Assembly (NCBI GenBank): GCA_948470475.1
Contig: OX419347.1
Location: 3,325,572-3,389,571 of the forward strand
Reading direction: 5' to 3'
DNA: 64,000 nucleotides
Source of the DNA: Galaxea fascicularis
Taxonomy: Eukaryota > Cnidaria > Anthozoa > Scleractinia > Euphylliidae
The position numbers were made by a program, and so were the translations under genes. Of this stretch, positions 1 to 29,807 are shown in pieces (within the stretch, counting starts at the first letter, position 1; every line of letters begins with the position of its first letter). The notes below the pieces were generated by a model that saw only the letters and a program-made list of their open reading frames with translations, did no database searches and was not told the DNA's origin.

Positions 1-1589
1 AAATGGAACCCTTCTTGAACTATCGTGTGGACTATGTCAGGCGAAGGCCATTTCCGTTCACGTTTTATCCAATCCAATGCAACCTTGGGCCATCCTGGAG
101 ATCTGAGAGCAGGAACTAAATCAAAACCGCCTGCAATTGCTGCCTTTGTGGAGACGGGTGATTCAGTGGGAGCAGCTTCGGCCTCTTCAGTTACGTTTTT
201 GAAAAGGTATTCAAAGAAACGGTCAGTTTGGGTTAAAAGGGTCTTGAAATCTTCGTATTCATCTTTTGGACTGGGTTGTAGAACAGCCTCCGTTGGTGGA
301 GTGACTACTGAGGGTTGCTGTTCTTTGCTTGAGTCAGTTTGACTCTCCCTTTGGGGGTCTCTATTTTCTTTCACATTTAAATCGCTCCGTGACATCTGAT
401 TTCTCGAGGAAAGTTTAGGAACCTCCGATGTACTGGCCATATTCGCTTGACTTAATGATGAGGGTATCTGATTATCATCAACATTTTTTACCTTGACACG
501 TGATCCATTTTTGGACGGGAAATTCTCTTGTGATACTTCATGTTCACTTGTTCGGCTTCCGATTTCGTCCTCACTTGGCCCGCTTCCGTTTTTGTTTTCA
601 TCTCTTCCGCTTCCGGTTTCGTCATCACTTCTTCCGCTTTCGTTTCCTGGCGTGACATCTTGTTGATTCTTTCGCTCCGTTGCATTCGCCATGCAATCCT
701 CCTGTCTTCTACTTTCGTTGTGTTTTCGGCTTTCGATGTCCTGAATTCTCTCTCTCATGTTTCTGAAGCGATCACTAGAAAATAATTCTTGTAGGAAAAG
801 AAGCGGAACGGCTTGTGGTTTAGAAAGCTCGCCTTTGTCGAAAAAGGACGTTTGTATCTCATTAGCAAACTCGAGGTATTCCTTGAGAACATCAGCGTGT
901 TCTTCTGAATATTTGACTCCCCCTAATTGGCAGATACCATGGACAAGCCATTCCCACTGTGTCAAGTTAACATTGGTCAATGCCTGTGGATTCTTGATCC
1001 TTTCCAACTCACCAGAAATTGGACCAAATGACTGCTTGTAACCAATTTGTAGAGCTGGAGAAGTATCTTCGTTTTTCCATTGCATGGCCACACTAAAAAC
1101 ATTTTCTTTAGACGCGATGTCAACCGCACGAATTAAAAGAGTGATCATGTGCGGCGCGGACTTCCCATAGATAGCAGCATGAAAATTCTTCAAGGCTGAA
1201 GTGGCCACGTACTCCGTACCTTCCAGAACGCAAAAGCTCAAAAAAGGATGCCCGATCCCTTTGATTTTCACGTGCATTGGGTTTGCCGAATCTTCGATCA
1301 TTTCGTCGTGGATCATTAAATCATCTGACTTGGGACAGATCACTATGTCTAAATCACCAATATCATCGGATGCTAGGCACTTTAGATCTTCAACCGCACT
1401 CCCATAGGCTCGAAGTATCATGCAGTTGTCAAACGTTTTGCTACAGAACTCAGAAAGTTTCTGTAGCAGGTCGTTGAAACAAAGCTCTGTGTATTTCTTC
1501 CATATTTCACCTTCCTTCCCTCGTTCTCCCATCGATTTGAAGATGCCATTTAGTTCCTGATTGAATGCGCCTTCCTCTTTCGACGCCAT
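1..1589 (-). CDS. Mab-21/cGAS-like nucleotidyltransferase, copy 1 (3' end outside window)
   Basis: The reading frame is open from ATG at 1589 to base 1 without a stop, about 529 codons, and continues past the left edge. Residues 62-83 hold the nucleotidyltransferase signature: a Gly-Ser pair at 63-64 and a D-L-D acid pair (79, 81) in the stretch GDLDIVICP. The third expected carboxylate is the D of FDLVPA, encoded near base 150 and followed by GWPKVALDWI, typical of the Mab-21 fold. A Glu/Lys/Ser-rich, low-complexity linker encoded at about 350-800 lies between these motifs. Family knowledge: cGAS-like receptors and Mab-21 proteins use these acids to bind metal and make cyclic dinucleotides, but many are inactive or untested. 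The gene is a tandem paralog of the gene at 4554-7064 and shares its start context (a TTGCAA run, then ATGGCGTC). The ligand and product are unknown. Confidence 0.88.
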   Translation of the reverse strand, partial: MASKEEGAFNQELNGIFKSMGERGKEGEIWKKYTELCFNDLLQKLSEFCSKTFDNCMILRAYGSAVEDLKCLASDDIGDLDIVICPKSDDLMIHDEMIEDSANPMHVKIKGIGHPFLSFCVLEGTEYVATSALKNFHAAIYGKSAPHMITLLIRAVDIASKENVFSVAMQWKNEDTSPALQIGYKQSFGPISGELERIKNPQALTNVNLTQWEWLVHGICQLGGVKYSEEHADVLKEYLEFANEIQTSFFDKGELSKPQAVPLLFLQELFSSDRFRNMRERIQDIESRKHNESRRQEDCMANATERKNQQDVTPGNESGRSDDETGSGRDENKNGSGPSEDEIGSRTSEHEVSQENFPSKNGSRVKVKNVDDNQIPSSLSQANMASTSEVPKLSSRNQMSRSDLNVKENRDPQRESQTDSSKEQQPSVVTPPTEAVLQPSPKDEYEDFKTLLTQTDRFFEYLFKNVTEEAEAAPTESPVSTKAAIAGGFDLVPALRSPGWPKVALDWIKRERKWPSPDIVHTIVQEGFH

Positions 1590-2149
1590 CTTGCAAAATG
1601 AAATGTTGTAAACTTTCAATGTGATTAGCGACAGAACATTTCATTGTCCAGAGGGAATGGGTAGAGCATTCTTCGAAAAATCCTGGGAGGCTTTCTCTGA
1701 ACGAAAACGTACACCGAATAACAAAGCAAGAAGAAGATAGCAAGCTAAAGATAGCTGAAACTCGAAAAAGGCTTTCAGTCAAGAAAACAAAATTTACATA
1801 AGAAATTTGTTTTGGAACCCCTCCCCTCCTCCTACCCTCACGGAAGAGACCGAGGGGGTGGGGAGTCGGCGCTATTTCTGGCCAATTATGCAACACTTAC
1901 CGTTCGACGCCCTTGTCGCTTTAGCGAGTTAAAACTGTAATACGCCATACTTAACGCTACAACCATAAATTTAATTGTATTCTATAACGATGAGTGATAA
2001 GCATGAACCTTCATTTACAATAAAAATATGACTGACATTTATCCAGACAAATCAAGTTATATTCCGTAAATAGAAACATTTTGTGAGTAGGTCCAGAAGG
2101 CAGTCGCACGTTATTCTGTTTAGCGACTTACATCCACACACAGTCTTGA

Positions 2150-4553: not shown

Positions 4554-7064
4554 CTAGTATCTATCTAGTATCATGCAAACGCAGATTAGGATTAAACATT
4601 TAACTACAGCGATAAACATGTGATATTCTTCACAAAAATGTTTACCGACCTTCCAATACACTACGTCCCAGAGGCATTCAAACACTTTCAGGCAGTCCTT
4701 AGCGTTCAGGTTATGCTTTGCAATCATCTCTCGGAGATCTTCCACCAAGCACCTCTCCATAGAGTCGGAACCGTTAAGAAAAAAGTCTTCTTTAAAGGCC
4801 TTGTCGATCAGATCCTGGCCAGTAGCAAGATAAACATCTTTGAGGTCGTGGAAACGGTAACCTGTGCTGGAGCCTCGTGCATGAGGCGTGGTGGCCACTT
4901 TAGTGGGAACTGTCTGCACTTCAGGCAGCTTTTTTCCCTCATCATTGCCACTGGCTGACGTTTGATCCGCTTCTCCATCTCTTTGTCCTGGGGCTGTGTT
5001 TTCGGCTGGATCACTTCTAGAGAGCAACTTTTCGGTTTGTACTTGCTTTGCAGCCTCTTCATCCTCGATCAGCTTTGCAAAACGCACTGGATTTTCAAGG
5101 ATCTCTACAGTCTTTTCAGCCAAGGAGTCAAGAATCTCAGGATTTTCAATGTAATCTATGCCGAACAGATTGTATGATCCAACAAAGAAATGTCTCAAGT
5201 CCCGAGTCACGAGTACTTCCAAAAGGCTTCCGAGTAGCTTCATCACGCAATCAGACCTGTTGCTCTCGGTCCACATGTCAGAACCAGTTTCTTCGATCGT
5301 CTTCAGTAAAACGTTTTTGAGATGAAATGTCACCAGACCCTTTGGTTCTTTAAGATACGCACGATGATATTTCTTCAGGCAGCGGTAGCAGTCACGCTGG
5401 ATGTCATTCATTTCTTGGCTCAACAGGTATTCCGCGTTAGAAAAAGAGATTCTGAAGTCGCATTCTGGGTTTCCTCCTTTTTTTGGTGGCTTAACAACCA
5501 AATGAAACCCTTCTTGAACGATCGTGTGGACTATGTCAGGCGAAGGCCATTTCCGTTCACGTTTTATCCAATCCAATGCAACCTTGGGCCATCCTGGTGC
5601 TCTAAAAGCAGGTACTAAATCAAACCCGACCAGAATGGGATTCCTTGAAGTATCAGTTGACTTTCGTTTCTCTTCGGGTGCAGCTTTGGCTTCTTCTGTG
5701 ATTTTCTTAAACAAGTGTTCGAACAGAAGGTGGTTTCGACGTGAAAGAGCCTTGACCTCTACGTATTCATGTTTTGAATTGGGCGGTAGAACAGCCTTAC
5801 TTGGCAGAATGTCTACTGGAGGACGCCCGTCTTTCTCTGATTCTCTTTCACTGTCTGATTTCAGGTCTCTCTCACTCTGATCGCTTTCTTCGTTTCCATT
5901 TTCATCCATCTCAGTTAAATGCGCAGAAGAGCAACAAGGCACCTTTCCTGAAGAGACATTCACTTTCGAGTGGCTTAATGTTGTTCCTAAGTCCTCTCCA
6001 GTGGATCTCTGACTGCCATCAGCTGTTTGTGCCGTTATAGATGGCGCAGCTCTCGACATACAAGTCTCTTGTGTGTTTTCTTCCTCATCTGTGTCACTTT
6101 CCTTTTCGTGACAGTTTTCTGACAGGTCATATTGATATTTTTGCTCTTCTTCATCTTCTTCAGAAAAACAATCTCGACTTTTTCCTCTTTCGTTTAGCAT
6201 TCGTGTTTCAATTTCCAGAACTCGATCTCTGAAATTTTTAGCGCGGTCGCTGAAAACTAAATCTTGTAGCACAAGGGAGAATGTTTGCGGCTGACACAGC
6301 AGGCCTTTTTCAAAATAGGACATTTGCACCTCATTAGCAAACTCAATGTATTCCTTGAGAACATCAGCGTGTTCCCGTGAATATTTCTTTCCCGCTCCCT
6401 TGCAGAAAGCGTGGGCAATCCATTCAAATTCTCCCACGTCTATGTTGGTCAATGTCTGCGGGTTTTTCAGCCTTTCCATTTCTTCAGAAATATGACCAAA
6501 TGACTGGGAACAATCCATTGTCCAAGCTGGACTTGTTTCGTTCGTATTCCACTCGGCGCTGTCAACTTTTACCCACCCTTCTCGATGTAAGATGTCAACC
6601 ATACGAGTTAACAAGTCGACTAGATGCGGTGCAGATCTTCCGTAAATTGCAGAATGGAAATTTTTCAAGGCTGAAGAGGCCACATACTTAGAGTCCTGCA
6701 CGAGGCAGTGTTGCAAAACCGGGTGTTCGATTCCTTTGATTTTCACGTGCATTGGGTTCACCGAATATTCGATCATTTCGTCGTGGATCATCAAATCATC
6801 TGATTTGGGACAGATCACGATATCCAGATCACCAACGTCATTGGGTGCTAGGCACTTTAAATCTTCCACTGCACTCCCATATATTCTCAGTATCATGCAA
6901 TTATCAAACTTCCTGTTTAAGTACTCGGAGACCTGTTGTAGTAGGTAGCCAGTACAATATTCAGTGTACTCCTTAAAAAAATTGCCTTCTTTTCCTCGTT
7001 TTCCCATCGTCTTGAATACGACGTTTAGCTTCTGTGTTACTTCGTCTTCCTGTCTCGACGCCAT
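4554..7064 (-). CDS. Mab-21/cGAS-like nucleotidyltransferase, copy 2
   Basis: A single 836-codon ORF starts at ATG 7064 and ends with a stop at 4554. G63-S64 and the acid pair D79/D81 (in GDLDIVICP) form the catalytic signature. F481-D482-L-V-P-A carries the presumed third carboxylate, followed by GWPKVALDWIKRERKWPSPD and FRISFSNAEYLL, the Mab-21 C-lobe. Between them lie a helical stretch (about 198-290) and an acidic Glu/Asp/Ser-rich disordered linker (about 291-430). Ordinary cGAS-like enzymes have these acids far closer together. Residues after about 660 are a second low-complexity tail and then a predicted helical end. The last 20 or so residues (hydrophobic, ILICVCMILDRY) may be intron read-through after a donor near 4645. 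Role by family: nucleotide second-messenger synthesis or nucleic-acid sensing; no activity is shown here. It is a tandem duplicate of the 1-1589 gene. Confidence 0.88.
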   Translation of the reverse strand: MASRQEDEVTQKLNVVFKTMGKRGKEGNFFKEYTEYCTGYLLQQVSEYLNRKFDNCMILRIYGSAVEDLKCLAPNDVGDLDIVICPKSDDLMIHDEMIEYSVNPMHVKIKGIEHPVLQHCLVQDSKYVASSALKNFHSAIYGRSAPHLVDLLTRMVDILHREGWVKVDSAEWNTNETSPAWTMDCSQSFGHISEEMERLKNPQTLTNIDVGEFEWIAHAFCKGAGKKYSREHADVLKEYIEFANEVQMSYFEKGLLCQPQTFSLVLQDLVFSDRAKNFRDRVLEIETRMLNERGKSRDCFSEEDEEEQKYQYDLSENCHEKESDTDEEENTQETCMSRAAPSITAQTADGSQRSTGEDLGTTLSHSKVNVSSGKVPCCSSAHLTEMDENGNEESDQSERDLKSDSERESEKDGRPPVDILPSKAVLPPNSKHEYVEVKALSRRNHLLFEHLFKKITEEAKAAPEEKRKSTDTSRNPILVGFDLVPAFRAPGWPKVALDWIKRERKWPSPDIVHTIVQEGFHLVVKPPKKGGNPECDFRISFSNAEYLLSQEMNDIQRDCYRCLKKYHRAYLKEPKGLVTFHLKNVLLKTIEETGSDMWTESNRSDCVMKLLGSLLEVLVTRDLRHFFVGSYNLFGIDYIENPEILDSLAEKTVEILENPVRFAKLIEDEEAAKQVQTEKLLSRSDPAENTAPGQRDGEADQTSASGNDEGKKLPEVQTVPTKVATTPHARGSSTGYRFHDLKDVYLATGQDLIDKAFKEDFFLNGSDSMERCLVEDLREMIAKHNLNAKDCLKVFECLWDVVYWKVGKHFCEEYHMFIAVVKCLILICVCMILDRY

Positions 7065-7507
7065 TTTGCAAGATTGAAGTCGCGTACCTTAAGCCGTGCA
7101 GCTTTATTTTTACAGTAAACGATGGAAACGGAAATATTTGTCCAGTGTTCCATGTTACAGAGCTATTTGTGAATAGCAAATAAAAACCGAGCTGTTGACC
7201 ATTAATGGTCATCATGTATAGCCTGCGAATACAGCCGCCTCTCATCGCTCCTGGCCCCCGAGGTGCGTTTCGCGAACAGTTTTGATTTCACACCATTTTG
7301 TGTCAAGTGGTCACAAACATCTTTGAAATGGAAATGAGAGTTTAGGCTGTTTCGCAAGCTCATTAAAAAATATGCAAGTATATCTCTTGCAATAAATCGT
7401 CTCAAAATCGCCACAAGAGTTTGAAAAAATGAAGTAGCTAAGAGGCTAAGACGTGTTTCCTTTATTCTGAGCGGATTTTCCACTATTGCAAAGCGTTTGA
7501 CGCCTTT

Positions 7508-14857: not shown

Positions 14858-15422
14858 TGGGTAGCGCTCATAATGTAAATTCTGTACAATACACGTACTT
14901 CGCAATTTTTTTATTGTGGTACTTGTTGCAAAGTGATAGGATTGTGTCGCTCTCTGCGAGGAACGGGTGGGAATTAAAGTGCGTGTAATTGTGAATTTCG
15001 CGCTATTGTGTAGGGTAAAACTATACTGGTGATTAATTCAATGGAAAAATGGTTACTGGGTAAGAAAAAAAACCATAGCTTTGGACAGTATGGCCCCATG
15101 AACTTGGATTGGGGAAGGTTCACTTACATCGATTATGATTAAGGTCATTACGTTACGAACAGGCATTCTCAACTGATGACCCGAACATTTTCAGGCAGTT
15201 AGAGTTAAACACAATTCAATACTTATGCTATCATTCCAAAATTGTGTGTCTTAACTCTAAAAGTGCTGGTCAGGTTATTTTCCTGACAAGCAAAATGCTC
15301 CTGTAGCACCAAGTGGAAGATCTCAAGCCATTTTCTCAGAGGGAGGGCAAACAATCTGATTCGGTTTGTAACTATTTTGACCGATTTTCAATTTTTTTTT
15401 ATCAATTTCAATCATTATCATC

Positions 15423-15696
15423 TTAACGCTTTAGCTCCCAGGGGTGATTAACATGTAATTTCTCATAATTCCAATTCGTCACAAAGCCCCCAGGTGACTA
15501 GTCTGAAATGTCAGCCGTCTCCTCCCCCTAACCCAAAGGGGCCGCGCCAGACTACCAGGTGTCGAGAAAAGACAAGCTTACCAGTTGGAGGGTGTTATGT
15601 TAATATAACCCCAAATTCTCTTAACTAATGTACGAGGAATTGTATGGCAGCTAGAAAGGAGAATTAATAAGCAGATCTTGGGAGTTAAAAGGTTAA
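15423..15696. repeat. TTAACC-ended repeat (copy 2)
   Basis: TTAACGCTTTAGCTCCCAGG at the left and CTTGGGAGTTAAAAGGTTAA at the right form the inverted ends. The interior shares AGAGGGTGTTATGTTAATAT with copy 1. Confidence 0.6.
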
Positions 15697-15699
15697 GCC

Positions 15700-17900
15700 A
15701 AAGAGGCACATTTACGGTTTTGGTAAACTGGTGAAATTATTTGAAACAAAAGTGGACCAACCGGTCACATCGTAATTTATTATGCTTGGTCAGGATTTAA
15801 CGTGTAGCGTAATTTGCAAGAAGGAACAATTCGTCTTCAAACTTTTGAATTTCAATTTGTAGTTAGTTGCTACCATGAATCTTATACAGGAAAATTAAGT
15901 TTTCTGATACCGCTCTGTTTCGGGAAATAAGCGTTAGCTCTGAAATGTGGGGAATAAATTTTGTTCTCTAACGTTTCCTACGGTGTGACCTGAATATGCT
16001 GGATTAGTAAATAAACTCAAAAGTTCCTTTGAGCAATTCGTGAATGGAGAGGATATAGCGCTGACACGTTTGTACGTAAATCTTCAAGTTTCGTTCGAAT
16101 TTCGGGTTTGTAGTACGTACCTTCTATTCACAATCCGGCGAAAGACGAAAAAATGTTCCGCGTTACGCAATAGGTTATCGATCAAATTGAATCGAACGAC
16201 GAGAAAGTCACTGACATCATCGTTTTCGAGATTCGCAGACCTGTTTTTTTCGGCGCTGTTGAGTAATATCAGGGTTACTTTTTACCTTTTAGAGCCCTGG
16301 ATCTCTATTGAAGAGAAGTAAAAATTATGCGACGGTGAAAATCCATCCTTAATTTCTCTTATGTATGTTCTTGTTATTGTGTGCAGAACATCGTTTACAG
16401 TTAAATTATAACGCGGTTTTAATATGTACTTCGTTTAAATATGTGGTCCGACGGGATAGGGCTGCACCTCTTTGAAACCTATAATTTTATTCGATCCTCG
16501 TAGGATGCAGCTCTATTGTTTTTTAGGGCTAGGTGCCATTGTTTTGATTGCCGGTCAATTTTTTTTTTCAACCAATCTTGTGAGGTCTGGCAAATGGTGC
16601 AAGGCTGCCGTGACGGAGTGCCACATAAGGGCAAACCCCTTACGTGTCTGAAAGGGAAATTGAGTGAAACGTTTTTTGGAGTATTTTCTTTGGTTACTGA
16701 ATGTAGACCTAAAAACGGGTATCAAACATTTAACAGCCTTTTATAACCGATTAGGTGGTTGGTCTGAAAGGCAAACCTCCGAGGTGTGAGAACGTGAAAC
16801 TACGTGAAAATTTTTGGCGAATATATATTATGGTTCCTGAACGCATCCTTGTAAGAAGAACGAAAGTAAAAATATTCTGCTCTGAGAACTGACGAGCATC
16901 AGTTAGCTTTAGACACTACAATCGACATAAAGCCCCATGTGTCTTCACGCTATTCCATCACGTTTTGTGTCTCATGATGTCCTGGTCTCCCTCGAAGTCT
17001 ATTTTTGAGAGATTTTAATGCCTAATTACAACTGTAGGGAAACTGGTGATTCTCATGCGTTGTCTCGCAGACAGCAACTATTTCGGTCCCCGCGCATCGG
17101 TGAGGGCCAGTTGGACGAAGTGCCTCGATTTCAGGTTACTGCAGTCAGTAAGATACGCTTACATAACAATTTATTATTTTTTATTGAGTAACTTAACAAT
17201 TTGTAATCCTTGCTCGCAAAAAAGGCATCCATAAAGACGATAGTGATTCGTGTGAGGCAAGTAAAGTGGTGGATAAACGAAACCGTGCTGTCTTTTTGCC
17301 CACGTTTCGTCCACAACGTTTCCTCATCCAAAGCCGGATGTCTGGTGATTTTAAGGCTGTCAAGAGGTTTCGGCAAGTGGGGCGTTTTTCAAGTAGGTGA
17401 TGATCGATGGATCAAAGTGTTGAGCATGGACGATGGCAGTTGATTGGCAGTGGAACGCAGAGAAAAGATGCCTGCTAATCTAACCCATAACCTGCTCTAG
17501 GCCTGTGAAAGAGTACGGCCGTTTGCTAGCCACATCCATCAGAATTCGAAGAAAATAGATATAACCGGCACCAGGCAGATCAAACCGGGTGCCGCAAGTG
17601 GTCTGGTTTCCTTCTCATTGGTTAAAAATAGGTCCGTAATGCGTACATGTGTGGCTTTCTAGACAACATGACAGGCGCTCGACTGTCGTGCCGTAAATAA
17701 ATCTAATCGTGCCATAATGTGGCTACGCACTTCGTGTAAGCCATACAAAAAGGAGGCGCAAGTTTTGGAACCAATCAAAGAGCGAGATCAAGCGAAACGA
17801 GAAAGTTGCATTATTCATTGCATTGATTCATCAAGGAACAATGCAATTCATTAATGTTCTTCATCTCATTGGTACGGGAACATTGGCGATCGGAAGTCAC
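15700..17900. other. Gene-poor spacer
   Basis: Only short random-looking frames occur here, none with coding character, splice context or recognised motif. The right part holds the likely 3' UTR and polyadenylation signal of the BH3 gene copy A (AATAAAGATT, read on the minus strand at 17930-17921). Confidence 0.5.
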
Positions 17901-18116
17901 GATAAAACAATACAATACATAATCTTTATTACCGTGTAATAAATCGTTTCACATTGGTTTTCATTAACAAAACAAGGGAGTTTACTTCATTTTCTTGTTT
18001 GAATCTTGATTTCAGGTACAATTTACTATTTTTCGTCAAACACCATCACGTGTTTTTGATCATCAATCACATACTCAATCACGTGTAACGTTACTGTTGG
18101 TTCCAGTCTTCACAGG

Positions 18117-18353
18117 TCACAAGAAGAACAGCAGCAATGAAGATCCCTTGATAATTTTCAAGCATGTGATATACTGCAAAGACATTAGCTCGTTATTATC
18201 TTGAGGATCTCCTTCTAACTGCAGTGGTCGAGTTTCCAGAGCGTCTCCAATAACACGCAATTCTCTTGCAATTTGTTCACACCGTTTCCTCCTGTCTTGG
18301 GTAAACTGGTCTTGTGGTCTTGATTTGTTTACTGTTTGAAGTGTGTCGTCCAT
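18117..18353 (-). CDS. BH3-only-like protein, copy A (78 aa, hydrophobic C-terminal tail)
   Basis: The coding exon starts at 18377 after the acceptor TTTTGCAG, with ATG at 18353 and stop at 18117. Residues 28-39 read IARELRVIGDAL: hydrophobic positions h1-h4 are I28, L32, I35 and L39 with the invariant G36-D37, the exact spacing of BIM/BID-type BH3 helices. BH3-only proteins bind the groove of Bcl-2 proteins or activate Bax/Bak at mitochondria to start apoptosis. The last residues (CLKIIKGSSLLLFFL) are hydrophobic and could act as a tail anchor. No other Bcl-2 homology region is seen. The size is typical of short BH3-only proteins. A 5' noncoding exon ends at 20095 with a GTGAG donor. The function is inferred from the motif, from conservation in three copies and from gene structure. 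Confidence 0.75.
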   Translation of the reverse strand: MDDTLQTVNKSRPQDQFTQDRRKRCEQIARELRVIGDALETRPLQLEGDPQDNNELMSLQYITCLKIIKGSSLLLFFL

Positions 18354-18889
18354 ATTGAAGATGGCTTCTTTGTGTTTCTGCAAAAGATAAGGCTCGCACA
18401 TAAAGTTGAAGAAGAATGATCTTTTGGTAGTTATTTGAAATGAGTGGATTCCGTTTCTCTGGATTTGACCTGGCTGTCTTAGAGCTCAGACCTTCATCAC
18501 GAGACATCCATGAGCTTTCAAAAGCTTCGTCTCGTCAGGTCAGATCTTACCACTGAAGTCAAACCGCAACGGCTCCAAACAAGAAGAAAGCGAAATAAAG
18601 TACGAAAGAAATAGGGAAGCTTAGTTTGCAGTTCGTAATGGGCAATAAATGTTTTGCGACTCTGGCTTTCAGTATTCACTGCCACAAAATCAAATTTACA
18701 GCTATTTAAGTTCCTGGGCACAATGAAGGCACAGTTTTCCCTTTGCTTAGAGACGTTAATTAACCATTTAATCCCCAACATCAACATTTGTGTGTTCCAT
18801 GTAGAGAGAATTTGTATTAATGTCAACTCATCTGATCCTTCTTGATAATTTCCTGTATTCTCATGCCCTGTATGGTTGACGAACCATTT

Positions 18890-19230
18890 TGTTTATTTGT
18901 TTATTTTGCCTTTTTTCTTAATATATTTACAAGTTAAAAAAAGTAGAATGTGTGGCAAGGTGACCTCTAGAAACCACCAGGCTTTTAGTTGAGGCCACCT
19001 TGTACATACTGACAATATGTTTGCATAAATGGTACTGCAAGTGAGCGGCCTAGTCAATTCAGTAATTATTTTATTAAAAACTCTAGTAGTTTTTTCTTAA
19101 AGTTAGGAAAACTTGATAGGGAAGTAATCGTAACAGGGAGGGAATTCCATATCTTTGGACCTTGGTAAAGAATTGTAAATTTCTTCATTGATATGGTAAG
19201 GAGAAGTTATAGATGGTAGTCACTAACTGC
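18890..19230 (-). mobile_element. 3' end of a CR1/L2-like LINE
   Basis: On the minus strand the sequence at about 19180-19066 encodes QGPKIWNSLPVTITSL and then FPNFKKKLLEFLIK and a stop. This is the characteristic C-terminal ending of non-LTR retrotransposon reverse-transcriptase ORFs, and it is followed by an AT-rich 3' UTR. The element is 5'-truncated and lies in the intron of BH3 copy A. Confidence 0.65.
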
Positions 19231-20094
19231 TTATTGCCGGTTTTCACTGTCACGCCATCATCAAAACCATTCAACAAATAACGTCAAGAATCAAAGAGAT
19301 AAAAGAAGATGAATATTCAAACAGTCTCGCAAAGATTCAGGTCTGTCTGATGTTTCGTGCGGGAGATATTCAAAGAAATGTCCTACTCAAATTTTAAAGC
19401 TTTTGTATTGAGACGCCATGTTTGTGTCCCTCTGAGGGGCACAAATATTGCGGCCGGGAGCTAACAAAGAGATATGTCACCGAGTTTTGCTATAAAAAGC
19501 CCATAGTCGTCTTCTAAGGGCTCATAAACATCTACATGAGTACTATTCTCATTCAAGGACTGATCAGATTACGAAATCTCGGCGGCTAAGTCACTTTTTT
19601 TAACCTACGCGACAGCATTCTCCGCCGGCGGTTTAATATCGTATCACACAAAGCATAGAAATTCAACCTTCACAAGACGAAAAAACCAATCAAACTGAAA
19701 ATTTGTGAAAGGATAAGTCTTCAGCTGTTCTAATTACTAGCTAAACTAAAATCTCAATAGGATTGATAATTCCTTATTTTTTAATTTTGATGACGTCATG
19801 TGAAAACTGAAAATTAAGAAGACCAAGAAGGGTTTCATAAATATGATCTGAAGTTCCTTAATAGGGTTGTTTCATACACCGTAATATTCCCTTTATCGTA
19901 CTAAAAACTCTCAGTGATTCTTAGACATCACTTTACACGGCGTTTGTTTCCAAGCCATCGACTCCTTAATCTTTGAAACCTCCTTTTTAGACTACTCTTG
20001 AACGTCTAGTCGCTTTCAAGAGTAGGTGGTGCTCAGTTGGCCGGTCAAGTCAAAAGATGAAATACTTGTTTTTAGTTTAGCATCACTATCTCAC

Positions 20095-20214
20095 CTTGCT
20101 TTGGTCGTTTTCTCGTTTTTCCAGTTTTCTTTTTTCTGTTTTTGGTTCTCACACAAAAGTCATTAGCTTGTTTTAATTATGTGGTTTCCTACAGGACAAG
20201 TGCTGTATTTTATA
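20095..20214 (-). promoter_or_regulatory. Promoter and 5' noncoding exon of BH3 copy A
   Basis: On the minus strand a TATA-type box (TATAAAATA, 20214-20206) is followed about 110 bp later by an A-rich exon end and the donor GCAAG|GTGAGA at 20095/20094. The segment GGTCATGTCTTGGCCT just upstream of the box is matched at copy B by GGTCATGTATTGGCCT. The transcription start inside the interval is not resolved. Confidence 0.5.
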
Positions 20215-21350
20215 ATAGCAAAACAGGCCAAGACATGACCGTGAAAAAACATCATTTGCTTTATCAGTGAACGTGACACTCCGAAATGCTGTCTGCTACA
20301 GGTTGCGTCTGTCTACAACCGAACCCTACTGCCCTTAACAGCCGAGCGCCGGAAGTTTCCAATTTCAGTGAAGTGATGTTCGGACGATTCTCGGCTATTC
20401 CGACGATTACTTCCCGGCTCTCATTCGTTTTGGATATCACTGAAGTTTGCGGCACATGGCAAACTCAAGCTTCGGTTATGAACCCTTCTTCAGCTTTGAA
20501 TCGTTTGCAACTCACATTAAATCATTATTCATTGTGAATTACCGTGTATGTATGTTAACTTTTGTTTTGGCACGTTAAATTCATATTACGAAAATTAAAC
20601 CAAATGACATCGTATCTTGATTATATCAAACAGCTTAAGTGGTCCGTTTAACGGTACTGCAAATTCTTCATCCTCGTAAAAATGCCATTGCGGGCACGAT
20701 CTTGTCCCAAAAAGCTGATTAAAGGCTAATCCGGCTTATTTATCGCCAGTTGAGCCGGATAAAAAGTTATTTGTGGGTTATGAAGTCGATCCTCGTTTTG
20801 CGATCATCTCTCCAAAGAGATATTTTTCTAACTGAAGTAAAATCACAGTAATAACTGGAACCTCTCACAAGCGACCGTGACCACTACCAGCCGGAGCTGG
20901 TAGTTTGAATTTATGGCATATTTCTATCTCTGCACGAGCGTACATTTCAGTGTTTTTGCAGTCTTGACCCAGCACAGTAGTCGGAAATGTCCCACGCGGA
21001 GATTCTGACTGTGTTTCCCCAAAAAAGACGAATTAACCACAAACCTCTTCTATACATTGAAATTACAGGTATATTAAATGATTGTAATAAAAAAAATACA
21101 TGATTCTATCAACTGAATTTGTGGGCTAACAACAGACAACTTAAAGTATATTTTAATTTTAATTTTTTATTTTCAAGTGTCCACAATTAGAACTGCTTTA
21201 TTTGGTTTACTGAATAGCAAGATGAACAAAAATTGTTTCTCAAAACATTAATTTGGTTTGACAGGTCCAGTGTGGTATCATTCGCAAAATAGAATGATTG
21301 TTACTCGCAAAGGAGCAATGCAAGTCCCTACAGGTGTTTTCAGTTTTAGC

Positions 21351-21376
21351 AGGAGCCCATAAATTTATGGGCTCCT
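21351..21376. repeat. 26-bp perfect palindrome
   Basis: AGGAGCCCATAAA and TTTATGGGCTCCT are exact inverses with no spacer. No gene or element is recognised around it. Confidence 0.9.
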
Positions 21377-21691
21377 GGTTTTAGATAGAAACATTTTCAT
21401 GCACGAGAAAATTATTTTTACATCAGATGTTCATTTATTTACCAGATAGGGAAAAACCTAAAATGAAAAAAAAAAGTGAGCTACAATATTCTTTTATAAA
21501 AACGTCTAATTTTGGAGGTTGAACGTTCTTTTTTTTGTTTTGTTTTGCGATTTGAACAAAGTGTTCTTACGTTCATCTTACATGGTATAGTATTTCAGTA
21601 AATCAAAGCGAACCTGACCAGAAAACCGATCAAAGTGCATTGTTTGATGCAATATGTTATTAAGTTGCTTGTCACATGCTTGTGTAACTTA

Positions 21692-22103
21692 GGGCCCGCA
21701 CGCACTAGGATGAAAAGACTTGTCTGGCTGTGACAAAAATCTCGATAAATGTCTCCACCAAATTTTGAATGTGCTAATCACTTACGCACTTAAAAACACC
21801 AAAACACTTGATAACCACAAGTGCAGGCTTCTGCTGAATGTATAGACTCTAAAAAGCGAGATCAAATTTCCTTGATTGACACTGATTTTCAGCCATTTTA
21901 ATGCCTGCAAATTGTAAAATCTCACAGTTTTTACGCTTGACAAAAATTTGTCCTGCTCTGAGGCAGGACGACGGCGCTTCTGAAGTTTGGTACGGCTTGA
22001 CAAAATTTTGGTAGGACGAAAAACGCCGTTCGCACTTGCAGAACGAAACCGATAACAGATATTTTTGCAAATAAACAAAAATTCGCCTATTGCGTACGGG
22101 CCC
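21692..22103. mobile_element. Harbinger-like MITE with TTA target duplication
   Basis: The ends are GGGCCCGCACGCA and TGCGTACGGGCCC, flanked on both sides by TTA (21689-21691 and 22104-22106), the 3-bp duplication typical of PIF/Harbinger elements. The 412-bp interior has no credible transposase. Confidence 0.7.
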
Positions 22104-22856
22104 TTACTCTGATGTCACGAACAAGATCATGTCGTGACAACCAACTCTTGGTAAATATGGCTTTGTAACTCTCAGGCTGGGTATGTTACTATGTTCTTAA
22201 AATTTGGGTTAATCTCAGCCTCTACGTTCTTATAAAAAAATTAAGGTTCTAAAAAAGAGAGTGTACTTTCGGCGCGAAAAAATTATCCACCACTCGATGG
22301 AAATAGAAGTTGAAAAAAAAAGTGTTCCTCGCAGTGGGAATACTTCTCAGTTGAATTTGCTAAGATGCGATAACAACCCGAACTCATCTCGAACATAGTT
22401 CGACTCCGAGACTCATACTTAGTTCTCCTCGGTTGTCTTTTTGATCAATGGGATCAAGGTACAGTCAGACCAAGGACATTATTCTTTGGTGATTATTTCC
22501 TCTATTTTCAGCCCTGTGTGCGCGATCGTGTACTCACATTCGGGTCACATTGTAAGGAGAAATTATATGCTGGTCACTGTTAGGGTTGAAAGGGTCAAAC
22601 AGACGAGTTTTGCCGAGTCAGGATAGTCTTATCGCACAACGGAGGACAGATGAGGCTTCAGTATTATCGTGTCCTTTATTAAAGCATCATGCTACACTCA
22701 GCTAGAAAAATTATTTTGATTATAGCAATAATAACAATCGTCGTTTGATTATCTAAAGTTGGAACTCCTTTTAGGTTAAACTGTGGCATTCAATGACGCA
22801 TGTTTTAGAAACAAACGTTTAAATACGCAGTCATCGGATCAATGTCGGTCTAGTAT

Positions 22857-22960
22857 CAGAGCAACTACACACCCCTAACCCAACATTAACACTAACTTAT
22901 TAACTTATTATAACTTGTTGGGTTAGGGGAAGGGTGGGTGCGCAGTTGCCCAGATACAGG
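22857..22960. repeat. Small inverted repeat (ACCCCTAACCCAAC / TTGGGTTAGGGG)
   Basis: The C-rich left end and G-rich right end are inverse copies about 60 bp apart, with a TTAACTTATTA direct repeat between them. It is a probable MITE remnant in the 3' flank of BH3 copy B. Confidence 0.5.
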
Positions 22961-23224
22961 AGCCCTTGAACTGCATCAATGCTGTCCGAGTTGACGGTGA
23001 CACCATGCTTTCTTCACGTGTTCACGTACGCAATCACATCTCCAATACTACGCTTAGCGGCAAAGTTGAAGGTCACGAGAAGACACAAATCACGTATAAT
23101 CATCTATATCAGGTGTTCAGAATTTAACCTCTTTTTGAACAAACGTTTAATGAATGGTAGATTGTTGATTCCAGTCATTTTTCACGAGTTCCCCACATGT
23201 CCAACGTTACTCTCAGTTCCATCA

Positions 23225-23437
23225 TTACAGGCATATGACATATTGCAGATAAATGCGCTTGTTATTGTATTCATGGACGGTTTCCAAATGAAGCCTGCTG
23301 TTTAAACGTGTATCGAGAGCGTCTCCAATGACACGCAGCTCTCTTGCAACCTGTTCACACCTTTTGCGCATGTCTTGGGTAAACTGGTCTTGTTGCCTTG
23401 CTGTGTTTACTATTCCACGAGTATCCTTGGCAGACAT
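23225..23437 (-). CDS. BH3-only-like protein, copy B (70 aa, tail lost)
   Basis: The acceptor CAACAG puts the exon start at 23461, with ATG at 23437 and TAA at 23225. The BH3 core VARELRVIGDAL has h1-h4 at V30, L34, I37 and L41, with G38-D39. It is identical to copy A across residues ARELRVIGDAL and across the preceding RKRCEQ. Where copy A continues CLKIIKG, copy B has CL and then a stop, so the hydrophobic tail is missing. It may be soluble or decaying. The exon context (CTTCAATATG) and the 5' noncoding exon ending at 24496 match copies A and C. A minus-strand AATAAA at 22681-22676 is a possible polyadenylation signal. Confidence 0.7.
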   Translation of the reverse strand: MSAKDTRGIVNTARQQDQFTQDMRKRCEQVARELRVIGDALDTRLNSRLHLETVHEYNNKRIYLQYVICL

Positions 23438-24495
23438 ATTGAAGTTGGTTCTTTTTCGTTTCTGTTGAAGAAAGACTTACACGTCAGTGCACATTCAAGA
23501 AAGAGTTTTCTTTTAATATTCACCCTTAAAAATGGTGGATTCCACTTCTCCCGTTTATCAGCATGCGAGTTAATGTAGTTAGAACTGGACGTGGCTGAAA
23601 CTAAATGGATTGCTTTGAGCTCACACCTGCGGGCTCTCACTGGTTCACTTTATCACGAGACTCCCATGACTCAGTGAAAGAGCCTAAAATTTTCTTAGTT
23701 AGCTCAGATTTATTCTCGGCTTACCAAGCAAACAAAAAACGGCTCGAAAACAACAGTACGATTTAGGAAGGCATATACCTTTGGAATTTAGCTCTTGAGC
23801 GCTGTTTGACATTAGAACAAATGGCTACGAAAAGCATAAGGAGCTAGTGCGACCAAACAGTGTTTCCTTCTCAGTTACCTTCACAAAACAAATTAAACCA
23901 GATGAGAAAAGATAACATAAGAAAAAGAGAGGATTTAAGTTTAAGACTGGGTTGTTTTGACTCTTAATAAATATTGAGGCTCAATTTAAAATAGTGGTCT
24001 ACTTTGATTTCCGATTCATCAGGAAGTAGAAGAAGGCTCGACTGTCTTCGCTAATTAGCTCAACTTTCGTTAGTTCTTGGCTTATGGGTAAAATTCCGTT
24101 TAGTCGTACAAAGTTAGCCATATGTCGTCAACGTTGTAAAGACATCTCTTGAGACGCGAAGAGGATGCGTACGCGTACGCCGCGGATGTTTTTCCGTCAA
24201 CAATAACTGTAAATAAAGTGCCTAAGTGCTTTTTACAATAGTTCCTCTCGACCTATTAAGTGTTCAGTCAAGAAGAACCAGTAAGGAGGTGAATGGCAAA
24301 AGTCGGAGCCACGTTTAGAAGTTCTTGGCTCTGATGAAATCCAGTCTTGGGCGGTGAAGTTTGATTAGATTCAATTAGTGATAACTTAATATTATATCGG
24401 TATTCTAGAGGAAATCCCTCGATGAGCAAAGTATTCGTATAAACATTTGCACAGTTTGAAATTAATTAAGTGGTTTTTAGTAAAAACAATCTCAC

Positions 24496-24589
24496 CTTTT
24501 TTTTCCTGCTTTTTGTTTCAACACAGCTCGAACGTCTGTCTGGTGTGTGGTTTTCTTTCAGTCAAAAGATCAAGTCACGTTATTTTATA
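24496..24589 (-). promoter_or_regulatory. Promoter and 5' noncoding exon of BH3 copy B
   Basis: The minus-strand box TATAAAATA (24589-24581) is preceded by GGTCATGTATTGGCCT and followed by an exon end AAAAG|GTGAGATT at 24496/24495. The layout is the same as at copy A. Confidence 0.5.
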
Positions 24590-24749
24590 AAAACAAAGAG
24601 GCCAATACATGACCTTGATAATCAACGCGTGCCAAGGTCACTGGCGTCATTAAGAAACAATTAATACAAACGAAGTACCCTAAGTTCTGACTGCAGCCAC
24701 TTGCTTACTCAAGCTTCCTTGTTTACTGAAATAGAAACACTTTAGGTTG

Positions 24750-27200
24750 GGACCAAACCCTTAAGGTTACGTAGAATGACATTGGGGGAGAGTATTAAAG
24801 AGGAAATTCCGAGTAGAGGAAAGTTCGGAAAATTCTCGGTAATTCCAACGATTAGTTCCTGTCACACAAATCGAGAACCAATTTCAACTTTGTTTTAAAT
24901 TAATTTAAGTGCCACGTACTACATAATGATTTATAATGTATGAAGTAAATCACGCTGAAAACTTCGATACTGTCATAAAAGTTTGTAAACTTCTCTCCAC
25001 TTTTTGCACTTGCTTACCATTACTATAGCTGTTTACACTAAGTATGATTTGTTTATTTATTCCCTTGAGTTCTACTGTACTTGATCCACAATCCCAAATG
25101 GATGAAGAGTCCAAAAGGTATTTTGTTCCTCAATCCATGTAGGCAGTTTGTTGTTTTGACTTTCCGCAGCCATTACGTTTTGAAAAAAATACTAATATAA
25201 GCCGTTATTACTCTAATAAAAGCCGAGATTGTATATTCTTAAAAGAACCGAAGACCCGGTCTATTTGCCAAAGAGTTCTTTCGACGACATTTAGTTGAAA
25301 TCAGTTCTTACAAGTTTACTGCAAGTTTCTCAAGTTGTTAATACTTCCAGTAGAATCTTAATTACGTCTTTGGTAAGTTAATCAGGATGGGACCAATTAC
25401 ATTCATCCCCCGTATCTTTCCAAAAATTTCTCCTTTCGCAATTTCCGTTAACACTGGTTAATTGGCTATAAAAAGATTGACCTCTTTTTTTCTGCGTATA
25501 CCAGCAGTTTTCGTATGCTATTAATACAGCAGACATGGACCTTAAATCATACTCGTTCCACGTGAGAAGTGCTATTCAGACACCCAAATAATCCCCTGCC
25601 GTAAATAACAGTCAAGTTGGTCCGCAATTTATCCCTTACTGCAAATTAACTTCAAGTTGGACGGCAGGATGAACCAACGGGTCGCAGTGATGATAACTCA
25701 AAAATCATCGCCTCCACAAACACGAGAGAAGGGAAGTAGAAATGAGTCTGAAACCTGAACAGCGCACTTAAAGTTGTTATGAAGTTTTTATTTATCTCAA
25801 TAGCGGAAGAAATTTTAAGATGACTTTTAAGTGCATGCTAAATAAACAACACATATTTTTACCTAATACATAATCACTGGGGATCTTCCTTGAAAAGGTC
25901 AGTAGAGCCTACCACAGGAACCCAGGGTTGAATTTAGTAATTGCAATTACAGTGATGGATGAATAAGTCTAATTAAATGATTGCTTTAAAATCATTGTTA
26001 AGCCTAATGTCTCACCAATTAATTTCGTGATACGTTTTACCAACAGTGCTAAAAGGCCTATAAAAAGTTAATGGTCCAATCAAGAAAAATTTACCAGAAA
26101 ATATATTTCTAAAAGGGAAACAAATTCAACCTCAACCCAATCATGTCATGGCATAACATAAAATAACCAATTTGACCCAAATCGAAAATCTTGTCTGAAA
26201 ATGAAAACTAGTATCACAAGTACACTGACAAACATGAAGCAGTATCAAGCTGGTATACTGACACAAGCAAATGTAAACTAATTAAATATTTCTCGAAAGG
26301 TTTCATAACACTGAAATCTAGAATACCTCAACACCTTTTTAAAAGAGATATACTTAATATATACTGTCATTGACCCTCGCACGCAGCGTTTGACTCATAA
26401 TACCCCGCTCCACGCGCTAAAAATGATTGTGGGCACCCTGTGATTTCCACGAGTTGTCTGCTATCTAGCGAAGCTGTTATTTCTGTCCGCACTCAATTGT
26501 CTTGATCACCCCTATTTTAGGACTAGATTGTATAGGCTTTCAGCACAATACAAAATGCTACAGTCAGATACGCATGAGTTGAATGCTTTGCAAGTTTGCT
26601 CTTCGACAGTACAAGGCTACCGTTAAGATAGTTGCGCTTTGTTTAAAAATGTAGACACTATTTCCGGCTTCCTCGTGTTTTGTATGAATTCAAAAACCGG
26701 ATAGCCGCAGTGATGTCATGGCTATCAGGAGTGTTGGTCAAGTGCAGCGTTTTTCGAATACGTGACTCGTACCTGGCAAACGGCCACGTGTGAAGACGGT
26801 GACCTATCGATCAACAGTCTAATAGACATGCGTAGTATCCTAGCAACGACAATTCCATTGGTTGCCATTAGAAACAGTACAAATCTTTTGTAACTGAGGC
26901 GTGATGAAATAAGAAATTTCAGTTCACATTTTATGCGAACTTAATATATTAATTTAACTCATCGTTCTTAACAATATTATATTCCGTTGTTAATTAGTAT
27001 AACTGTATCTCCTTCAATCGTTTCCTTTTTTCCACACTGAATTTCTTGGACATACAGTTGTGGCAGAGTTTTTCATCTGTTAGATATATACTTGAAAATT
27101 CACATTTAGCTGTTCTAGGTTTAAAAATACTCATGCGTGTTTCGCATATTCTTTGCCATTTTTGAGAGCGTTGTTAATCAACCCATTAGTTTTCAGTTCT
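24750..27200. other. Gene-poor spacer between BH3 copies B and C
   Basis: AT-rich sequence without a credible coding exon, tRNA or intact transposon. It includes upstream flank of copy B and downstream flank of copy C. I see no clear polyadenylation signal close to copy C. Confidence 0.5.
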
Positions 27201-27211
27201 GGTGTTTCAGC

Positions 27212-27496
27212 TCACGAGATCTTGGCGGAGTGCAGAATCAAAATAAACCATTTCTGAAGTAAAAGTTCTTTGATAATAACCCAGCTAGAGACGTTTTCCA
27301 GGTTGACTCTGTGGTTATTTTCGTGCTGAGCTTGTTCCATGCGTAGAGCGCGTTGAGGGTGGAAGCGAGATTCGAGAGCGTCACCAACAGTACGCAACTG
27401 TATTGCAACGTGTCCACATTGCAAACTCATGTCTTGGGGAGGCTGGTTCTGTTGTTTTGATTTGCTTGTCCTGTCAGATGCGTCTTTGGACATCAT
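27212..27496 (-). CDS. BH3-only-like protein, copy C (94 aa, long hydrophobic tail)
   Basis: The acceptor ATTTACAG puts the exon start at 27520, tandem ATGs are at 27496 and 27493, and the stop is at 27212. The BH3 core VAIQLRTVGDAL keeps h1-h4 (V30, L34, V37, L41) and G38-D39. It has lost the R-E pair of copies A and B, so it is the most diverged copy. Residues 70-88 (SWVIIKELLLQKWFILILH) form a hydrophobic C-terminal stretch consistent with a tail anchor, as in many BH3-only proteins. The 5' noncoding exon ends at 28129 (AAAAAG|GTGAGTTT), only 0.6 kb upstream. The noncoding leader just before the ATG aligns with copies A and B, supporting tandem duplication rather than chance. Confidence 0.65.
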   Translation of the reverse strand: MMSKDASDRTSKSKQQNQPPQDMSLQCGHVAIQLRTVGDALESRFHPQRALRMEQAQHENNHRVNLENVSSWVIIKELLLQKWFILILHSAKIS

Positions 27497-28360
27497 GTTG
27501 AAGCTCGTTTCTTTGTTTCTCTGTAAATAAATGACTCGCACCTCAGAGTAGTTTCAGCAAGAGTTATTTTCTAGCATATATATATATATTCTGTAACTCT
27601 CGTCTGAACAACGTGCTTGAATTAACGCACCAGCCAAATCACGTCATGTGACTCTCACGCTGACTCAAGACCTTGAACTCTTTGTCATCTGTTCTTTATA
27701 GCGATAACAACCTGCTAAAATCTCTCCTGATTTTGCGACACAAAACAGTTTTTTAGAGCAAAATGGCTAGTGAACCATAACCCAAGACGTGGCATATTAC
27801 TTTATAGCTGCTTCTAGATAGTAAGTGACTACCCGTGAGACTCGCGAAAGTTTTCAAAACATTCGGCGTTTCTTCGGTCGCTTTGCCGAGCGCGGGAAAT
27901 AACTTAAGTGCTTCAAAAATGTCACGAGGTACTAATATGCTTTTGATTGGATACCCAACCCTCGCGAAATAAATGATGTTTCTGATGTTAGAATTTCGAT
28001 TTTACCTGACCTACCGGGTCTTCTTCTCACACAAGCCCAAAGACAGGTTTTCTTTGTCTTAACTCAACTTTTCGCGTTCAACGAAAAACTGAAAAAATAA
28101 CTATCTTTTAGTTGCATACTAAACTCACCTTTTTGTTTTTCAGTTGAAATACAGTTAAAAAGTTTTTCAGGAGAGCAGCTTCTCTGAAGTCGTTGCGTGC
28201 ATTTAGCAAAATGGTGATTGTCTAAGCAAACCGTGGTAATTATTTAACGACACCGACAGGGTGCCAAGGTCGCGACGTCATTCACTAAGAATCATCTCGA
28301 ATCTGAAGCAACTTCCTGTTTGCGGTTGCGGATTACTTGTCTTTGAGGACAAACCCTAAA

Positions 28361-28475
28361 CAATGGAGCTACTGAGCAGTACCTTCCTGTGGTGCTGTTT
28401 ATTATGCTGGTACAAGGGGTGGTTCTACGTTTTGAGTCTGTGGATGAAATCCTAAAGTATGAGCAGTACGTGACT
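28361..28475 (-). repeat. 106-bp tandem repeat family, block 3 (inverted)
   Basis: One good monomer in reverse orientation (GTGGTGCTGTTTATTATGCT, GTTTTGAGTCTGTGGATGAA), followed to about 28600 by a weak second copy. It lies upstream of the 5' exon of BH3 copy C. Confidence 0.75.
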
Positions 28476-29807
28476 TTCTTGTGTCAGTTGTTTCGTACTT
28501 AATTTTGAGTCCAGAAAACGCCGATCCTAACATTTGACAATTCAAATGTGAAATCAACTTAACAGTGACTTTTGAACAGTATTTTCTTGTGATGTTGTTT
28601 ATCAATCCATGTATCGCTGATCTATGTCGCTGAAAATCAGAAGTAAAAATCATTTTGGGCGCACCTCAAAACACACATTGCCTGTTGTGCCATATCGTGC
28701 ATGTTTGTCTGCCGAAGCACAACAAATATTTGTATGCACGTCAAAACAAGTCGACAGACTTGTTTCACGTCATTACAAAGTGCCGCCCATTTAACAACTT
28801 TCAAACCGGAACTCTCAGTCAACGCGAGAAGCTTTTAACTAGGTAGCGAGCCAGCTCAGCCTGTTTAGTTGAGGAGAGTTTTCGTGATGTTTTAGGATAC
28901 TCGATTTTCGCGAGTGGTGTTTGAGGAACCGGCGTTGTCTTAATTAAAAAGCCAAAAATTGAGTAAATAAACTTCAATTCCTTTTCAATCAGGAACGCAC
29001 GAAAGTTCCGGGCTATCTACAAATTTGCAAACGGCAGACATAAAATAATTCATCGGTGGCTAAAATGATGGACACACAAAATATATTGAGGATTTTTGGC
29101 ATAAAATAACATTTCAAACAGATGAATTTGTGTCTGAAATAATGTTTACATCACTAAAATCCGTTAGCAAAGAAGAAATGGGACCCTAAGTAATTTTCAC
29201 CTTCTCTAGTTGAATTGCGTAATTATCTTTACGGATGCCAAACGTTCAGCTAATTTTTCAAGTTGCTCAGTGGACTAAAAAATAAAAATAGCGTGAGAAA
29301 GGCCTTTAAAACGTATGACGAGTTGTGACAAATGTTTTCCTCTGTTTGTCAACAACTAGCAACGAAACAAAAACGCGAAAAAGGCACAAAAAAAAAAAAC
29401 CCGTAGACACTGACTAGAAACGTTTACCAGTTGAATGTTGCTTTGCGTTAGTGTTTTTGCCAAGTTGTTTGCCAAATTAATACTGGAAACTGAAACCTGG
29501 CTTATTTTCCACTTTCTGTTTACCATAGCTCCAAAGTTGCGGTTGACAGCTTAAAAGATGTCTATGAATAATTTCTTTAACTCCCTCTGTCCGCCATTTT
29601 GTGAACGTGATATTATGTATAATTAAAGTTGCGTTTATTTGGTTTACAGTTCAACACCTGCTGGTGTCACATTGTCTTCTTTGTTTCATCTCGACCTTGA
29701 CTTAAAAAATTGGGGTAGCCCCGGGTTAAACCTCCTGTCAAGAATTTAAAACAAGTCGCCGCCACCATGTTCATTTTCATATTGTCATGCAAATTAGCCA
29801 TGTGGGG

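Follow-up and report, generated by a model that had tools for sequence, protein, structure and literature searches.

A tandem array of three BH3-only-like genes with relatives on other contigs

Three coding exons in a tandem array

The window analyzed here is a single stretch of DNA of 64,000 nucleotides, and all coordinates refer to positions within it. On its minus strand are three open reading frames, at 18353-18117, 23437-23225, and 27496-27212, which translate as the first-pass annotation had claimed, into proteins of 78, 70, and 94 amino acids. The common helix that it had read in them, with BH3 spacing, was also recovered (as IARELRVIGDAL, VARELRVIGDAL, and VAIQLRTVGDAL in copies 1, 2, and 3).

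18117..18353, minus strand: copy 1 coding exon, 78 aa; BH3 core IARELRVIGDAL at 18237-18272; hydrophobic C-terminal segment
23225..23437, minus strand: copy 2 coding exon, 70 aa; BH3 core VARELRVIGDAL at 23315-23350; without a hydrophobic tail
27212..27496, minus strand: copy 3 coding exon, 94 aa; BH3 core VAIQLRTVGDAL at 27374-27409; hydrophobic C-terminal segment

Copy 2 is 65% identical to copy 1, and copy 3 is 36% identical to it. When the window was searched by tblastn with 22 family proteins as queries (see below for the relatives), 67 of the 84 matches at E ≤ 1 fell on the three loci. The 17 others look like chance, so the window offers no convincing fourth copy. The best of these off-locus matches (P0022, E = 0.003, 20% identity, at 639-800) lies inside a Mab-21 gene, is without the BH3 Leu and Gly-Asp, and is absent at default tblastn settings.

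The most hydrophobic 17-residue window falls in the C-terminal part of copies 1 and 3 (Kyte-Doolittle values of 1.77 and 1.61, respectively), whereas copy 2 has no such C-terminal segment (best value, −0.04); over the family, the 17-residue maximum exceeds 1.2 in 14/22 members. Given a 21-sequence alignment, AlphaFold2 placed helices at residues 13-41 and 50-77 in what is a low-confidence model (mean pLDDT 63.6, and <50 for residues 1-8). That copies 1 and 3 are anchored at membranes by their C-terminal helix is a guess, because the hydrophobicity of the segment is only moderate.

Leaders, splice acceptors, and predicted 5′ exons

A common leader, a nearby 3′ splice acceptor, and a 5′ noncoding exon had also been proposed for each copy. 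The leader is there, as CTTCAATATG (exact in two copies) and CTTCAACATG (one change, in the remaining copy), and so is the acceptor (CAG or ACAG, in all three copies). The 5′ noncoding exon, by contrast, is a prediction made from an upstream AAG/GTGAG donor. The corresponding features are as follows.

18354..18377, minus strand: copy 1 5′ leader, 24 nt, after acceptor CTTATCTTTTGCAG
23438..23461, minus strand: copy 2 5′ leader, 24 nt, after acceptor TCTTTCTTCAACAG
27497..27520, minus strand: copy 3 5′ leader, 24 nt, after acceptor TCATTTATTTACAG
18378..20094, minus strand: copy 1 predicted intron, 1717 bp, GTGAG...CAG
23462..24495, minus strand: copy 2 predicted intron, 1034 bp
27521..28128, minus strand: copy 3 predicted intron, 608 bp; donor AAAAAG/GTGAG; the 5′ exon end would be 28129
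20095..20214, minus strand: copy 1, predicted 5′ noncoding exon end to TATA-like box; donor GCAAG/GTGAG; TATAAAA at 20214-20208
24496..24589, minus strand: copy 2, predicted 5′ noncoding exon end to TATA-like box; donor AAAAG/GTGAG; box at 24589-24583

Copies 1 and 2 resemble each other in DNA sequence from the acceptor CAG (18380 and 23464) to the end of the BH3 (18229 and 23307), and in pairs 1-3 and 2-3 the similarity reaches ∼20 to 50 bases further upstream. Beyond this acceptor-to-BH3 stretch, the similarity from copy to copy consists of a few short blocks. An AATAAA/ATTAAA signal occurs 187 bp downstream from copy 1 and 74 bp downstream from copy 2, and there is none in the 800 bp downstream from copy 3.

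Relatives on other contigs and conservation of the helix

Three protein searches returned 10, 18, and 19 matches (the second of them scored only the 7,996 candidates with the most words in common), representing 19 different proteins, P0004-P0022. Five of these (P0004, P0005, P0006, P0008, and P0014) are close in sequence to the window's copies, at 91-99% identity by tblastn; their source may be the same species or a sister species. Others seem, judging by the length of their longest contig, to lie together: P0007, P0009, and P0011 on one contig of 16,840 bp; P0016, P0017, and P0019 on one of 2.18 Mb; and P0012 and P0013 on one of 1.35 Mb. The tree built from 22 sequences joins P0011 to copy 1 (support 0.94), P0009 to copy 2 (0.986), and P0007 to copy 3 (1.0). 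If these three relatives do share a contig, the triplication is older than the split of the two lineages. Viral contigs of IMG/VR gave 39 pattern matches, none of which was confirmed as a relative.

Five residues (A29, L32, G36, D37, and L59 in the numbering of copy 1) are invariant in 22/22 sequences, and Cys25, which is three residues ahead of the BH3, is kept in 21/22. All the elements by which a BH3 is defined, that is, four hydrophobic hotspots plus the Leu and the Asp, are present, with the Leu and Asp in every one of the 22 sequences. The hotspots are I/V28 for HP1 (T in P0005), L32 for HP2, I/V35 for HP3 (A in P0020 and P0021), and L39 for HP4 (M in P0011). The position after the Asp is Ala in 20/22 family sequences and, in many human BH3s, Glu or Asp (PMC9171138), a difference that counts against the BH3-only reading. 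At the level of the DNA and its translations, then, there are open reading frames, a BH3-type helix that is conserved, a family in other contigs, and a pairing of copies with relatives.

Selection between the copies

A comparison of dN/dS among the copies, which the first-pass annotation had suggested, came out differently for different pairs. We used a Nei-Gojobori script, and the values are rough because counts are small and synonymous values high. Copies 1 and 2 look to be under constraint, with an overall ratio of 0.22 that drops to 0.11 over the 30 codons leading to the end of the BH3. The pair 2-3 gives 0.46, and the pair 1-3 gives 0.79 overall and 1.14 from the start to the BH3 end. By this measure copy 3 looks relaxed or altered in function, yet its relative P0007 retains the motif.

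These values bear on whether every copy is a working gene. One or two of the three copies could be decaying duplicates within a BH3-only family, a situation that we regard as possible, if rather unlikely, and that is compatible with the explanation that we favor below. For copy 3, the near-neutral ratio with copy 1 and the missing downstream AATAAA/ATTAAA signal point this way, as does, for copy 2, its end at 70 aa when P0009 (the closest relative of copy 2 outside the near-identical ones) has 81 aa with a hydrophobic tail. However, the three frames are all open, and the L, G, and D are retained in relatives of all three copies. The 70-aa form also recurs in P0006, although P0006 is near-identical to copy 2 and maybe from the same or a sister species.

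Statistical strength of the BH3 match

A relaxed BH3 pattern has exactly three matches in the six-frame translation of the window. It should be noted that the same pattern occurs in first-order Markov shuffles of the window (mean of 0.63 and maximum of two matches in 30 shuffles), so the bare pattern is weak evidence. For this reason a scoring matrix was made from validated human BH3 cores, using the 29 usable twelve-residue cores in Table 1 of PMC9171138. Compared with known BH3s in this way, the three sites bear out the reading of the first-pass annotation, as they take ranks 1, 2, and 3 among 66,634 12-mers (all stop-free 12-mers of the window, six frames). Copies 1, 2, and 3 score 20.7, 20.5, and 17.5 bits, and the fourth-ranked site of the window 12.3. 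The best score among 40 shuffled windows is 17.5, and therefore copies 1 and 2 beat all 40 shuffles, whereas copy 3 only equals the best of them. The human BH3s, each scored without itself in the matrix, give a sense of scale: 27.5 for BIM, 20.9 for BMF, 19.2 for BID, 19.0 for BAK1, 16.6 for BAD, 10.7 for NOXA, and −8.1 for the lowest validated protein. The core of the relative P0022, VARELRVIGDEL, reaches 26.7 bits and is identical to BIM at 8/12 positions.

It is hardly conceivable that the helices are chance matches in noncoding DNA. The 0.63 matches expected per shuffled window by the bare pattern would fit with chance, but this explanation is contradicted by the nineteen relatives from other contigs, the low dN/dS of copies 1 and 2, and the common splice leader.

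Profile, PDB, and Pfam matches

A profile of the BH3 region, built from 16 nonredundant regions (of 21 sequences), was compared with 177,635 PDB sequences at E ≤ 10. It gave 54 matches. Chains named as Bcl-2-family members or as BIM/BID peptides account for 47 of them. We also count as BH3 peptides two Pxt1 chains, a DM2 peptide, a foldamer, and srt.F10, and these five bring the BH3 chains to 52/54. The other two, apolipoprotein E and an alphaB-crystallin segment, are unrelated. The best match is BAK (E = 0.0042). A reversed-sequence control profile had two PDB matches, neither of them BH3. With a full-length profile, 36/39 matches are BH3 chains (counting two Pxt1 rows that we presume to be such), and the best is again BAK (E = 0.034). 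The family profile is needed to see this: copy 1 alone matched no BH3 chain in PDB.

Pfam offers weaker signals. Over 13 members there are 11 weak matches, including BMF (two members), PMAIP1 (two), and Bclx_interact (one). No Pfam match reaches its curated cut-off (best E-values in the BIM and BMF models, 0.025 for Bclx_interact and 0.062 for BMF). Orthology to BIM or BMF, as judged by a Pfam score above the curated cut-off, is thus not indicated. Weak matches that span the BH3 are those to BMF for P0001 and P0015 and to PMAIP1 for P0003, and when ten members were scanned singly, only P0015 matched a BH3 family. Unrelated families outscore the BH3 ones, namely ECH_1 (3/13 members, best E = 8.3 × 10⁻⁴) and CHD1-like_C (P0018, E = 9.7 × 10⁻⁴). 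We rejected an ECH_1 or CHD1-like identity, as these are helix-on-helix matches below the cut-off and the proteins are far shorter than the ECH domain; their better scores nonetheless weigh against the BH3-only reading. NCBIfam gave no match for four family members.

A low-sensitivity scan of the three minus-strand frames of 15001-28500 (it missed a weak match of copy 1 to BMF, which another Pfam search had picked up) returned no Pfam match at E ≤ 1, hence no sign of a Bcl-2 domain. A multi-domain Bcl-2 gene with hidden BH1/BH2 exons was rejected on this ground, within the limited sensitivity of that scan. A BH3-only protein has no other Bcl-2 homology region or fold, and the small size of the window proteins (70-94 aa) and the empty minus-strand scan agree with this.

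The Pfam results do leave room for a genuine family whose BH3-like helix binds a non-Bcl-2 partner, and which would not be an apoptosis initiator. Members match unrelated Pfam helices with better E-values than BH3 families, and for a short linear motif such as the BH3, permissive patterns produce many false positives (PMC9171138). We nevertheless judge such a family unlikely, given that the hotspot positions rank among its most conserved, that copies 1 and 2 score in the matrix like validated human BH3s (BMF, BID, and BIM, with P0022 close to the last of these), and that the reversed profile finds no BH3 chain.

Comparison with known BH3 proteins

The core of copy 1 is identical to that of BIM (BCL2L11) at 8/12 positions (IARELRVIGDAL vs. 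IAQELRRIGDEF), and BIM is the best BLOSUM62 match among the 29 human cores for both copy 1 (35) and copy 2 (34, with BAK1 next at 33). BIM has a hydrophobic C-terminal tail. The window proteins are likewise small, and in copies 1 and 3 the helix is followed by a hydrophobic segment at the C-terminus. However, no significant similarity to BIM is shown beyond the BH3 (Bclx_interact was matched by 1/13 members, at an E-value of 0.025 that is below the cut-off). The dynein light chain motif of BIM and BMF is K-x-T-Q-T. It was sought in the alignments by eye and rejected; most members have TQD, and none has an N-terminal TQT.

For BAK (BAK1), the family profile QVARELRvvGDALEtR aligns to QVGRQLAIIGDDINRR, and BAK BH3 chains are the best PDB matches. 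Unlike the window proteins, which have 70-94 aa and no BH1/BH2 or Bcl-2 fold that we could see, BAK is a multi-domain pore former. NOXA (PMAIP1) has the human BH3 closest to that of copy 3 (7/12 identical). The family differs from both BMF and NOXA in that its Pfam matches to them are below the curated cut-offs.

Among cnidarians, BH3-only candidates are published for Acropora, Nematostella, Hydra, and Clytia (PMC8998228), HyBH3-only 1-4 of Hydra are listed in PMC10192318, and a yeast two-hybrid screen yielded potential BH3-only proteins of Hydra, with biochemical verification called for (PMC7022251). For Acropora digitifera, PMC4083563 reports that no BH3-only member was identified. Moya et al. 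(2016) described the coral BH3-only repertoire as uncharacterized, particularly important, and likely to be challenging because the sequence is not conserved (PMC4715348). Given the published candidates of Acropora, Nematostella, and Hydra (PMC8998228), the existence of BH3-only genes in cnidarians is not in itself new, and it is possible that the Acropora candidates of that paper are the same genes as this family. Set beside it by description only, the cnidarian candidates (PMC10192318, PMC8998228) are likewise short proteins with one BH3; the difference is the 5′ untranslated intron predicted here. The sections consulted of the literature on cnidarian BH3-only proteins mention no tandem BH3-only array. 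The string LRVIGDAL is absent from the literature searched, a search that most subscription journals fall outside.

A probable family of apoptosis initiators

We consider it probable, judging from sequence, that the three genes make up a tandem family of BH3-only apoptosis initiators, with a single coding exon per gene and, upstream of it, a predicted 5′ noncoding exon. The tie to stress or bleaching cell death that the first-pass annotation suggested is speculative, but its core, a three-copy BH3-only-like family, holds up on the family profile and its reversed control, the human matrix, the dN/dS of copies 1 and 2, and the relatives elsewhere.

We infer, with known Bcl-2 biology as the guide, that the genes are spliced and expressed and that their products bind the groove, anchor at membranes, and kill. 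Each gene would encode a small protein in which a short N-terminus precedes a single amphipathic BH3 helix; many members would have, in addition, a hydrophobic helix at the C-terminus. Once a gene is induced, the BH3 helix would enter the groove of pro-survival Bcl-2 proteins. This binding would free BAK/BAX-like pore formers at the mitochondrion, or the helix would activate them directly. In copies 1 and 3, the C-terminal helix may tether the protein at membranes, and copy 2, which is without it, may work from the cytosol.

If the organism is a coral or a relative, the three helices offer concrete peptides and genes to set against coral Bcl-2 proteins, such as the Acropora millepora set that Moya et al. 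(2016) produced in HeLa cells. They would reveal how intrinsic apoptosis starts in these animals and if its BH3-only initiators come in gene families there.

Upstream regions and neighboring genes

Copies 1 and 2 have two blocks in common upstream of their coding exons.

20206..20247, minus strand: promoter block, copy 1; 83% over 42 columns vs. copy 2; contains the TATA-like box
24581..24621, minus strand: promoter block, copy 2; common to copy 1; contains the TATA-like box
20378..20414, minus strand: second upstream block, copy 1; 84% over 37 bp vs. copy 2; kB-like palindrome nearby at 20351-20360
24823..24859, minus strand: second upstream block, copy 2; common to copy 1; kB-like site nearby at 24802-24810

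The upstream stretch scanned for copy 3 has no TATAAAA box. The kB-like palindromes of copies 1 and 2 follow two different patterns, which have 14 and five matches in the window (both strands counted). Lying upstream of the predicted promoters, these putative sites are a regulatory lead only. No exact three-unit heat-shock element occurs in the window, and heat-shock control was rejected. Control by p53 was rejected too, as none of the window's 32 p53 half-sites falls in the three 641-bp upstream stretches. In these same stretches (copies 1, 2, and 3, respectively, with the expectation for each in parentheses), there are 0, 3, and 2 FOXO-like sites (0.51), 2, 1, and 1 ARE-like sites (0.56), 1, 3, and 0 CCAAT (1.34), and 0, 1, and 0 TCAAGGTCA (0.02). 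Such counts are insufficient for a claim of control through any of the four.

A more elaborate version of the initiator family, which we think quite unlikely, is that it is an old tandem family with divided roles, in which the copies would have their own promoters, copies 1 and 3 would act at membranes and copy 2 in soluble form, and the Cys would confer an oxidant-sensitive helix. If this were true, and in a symbiotic coral, oxidative or immune signals (the latter through the kB-like sites) would be wired to host-cell loss.

Mab-21/cGAS-like and MAP3K1 genes are of a stress or immune type, and their adjacency to the array may be coincidence. Two Mab-21/cGAS-like genes flank it on one side and, on the other, there is a gene, in two pieces, that matches MAP3K1 (MEKK1).

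Genes flanking the array

On one flank of the three tandem BH3-only candidate genes (copies 1 to 3) lies a tandem pair of Mab-21-domain genes, and on the other a MAP3K1 (MEKK1)-like gene, of which two parts were matched.

Features flanking the array (window coordinates)
3-1595, minus strand: Mab-21-domain gene, second of the tandem pair, cut by the window edge
4554-7088, minus strand: Mab-21-domain gene, first of the tandem pair; open frame of 844 codons, stop to stop
51195-51704, plus strand: MAP3K1 (MEKK1)-like gene, RING part; match to MEKK1 SWIM and RING domains (E 3.5e-9)
56481-57605, plus strand: MAP3K1 (MEKK1)-like gene, later frame; match to MAP3K1 structure 6whb (E 3.2e-14)

The second Mab-21-domain gene is 50% identical to the first over 549 aligned residues. 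Because the top PDB match of the first is cGAS-like receptor 1 (E 4.9e-17), the pair are possibly cGAS-like immune sensors.

Variation within the family

Tail length is variable among copy 3 (27212-27496, minus strand) and its relatives P0004, P0014, and P0007. In the close relatives P0004 (137 aa) and P0014 (167 aa), the frame continues beyond the copy 3 stop, and P0014 also starts further upstream; P0007, which groups with copy 3 in the family tree, stops at the same place. Separately, residue 56 of copy 1 (18186-18188, minus strand) is Leu, and Arg in the other 21 members of the 22-sequence alignment.

Finally, a block of ~75 bp occurs both downstream of copy 1 (17327-17400) and between copies 3 and 2 (26690-26765), with 72% identity between the two; it is perhaps a remnant of tandem duplication, or a repeat.
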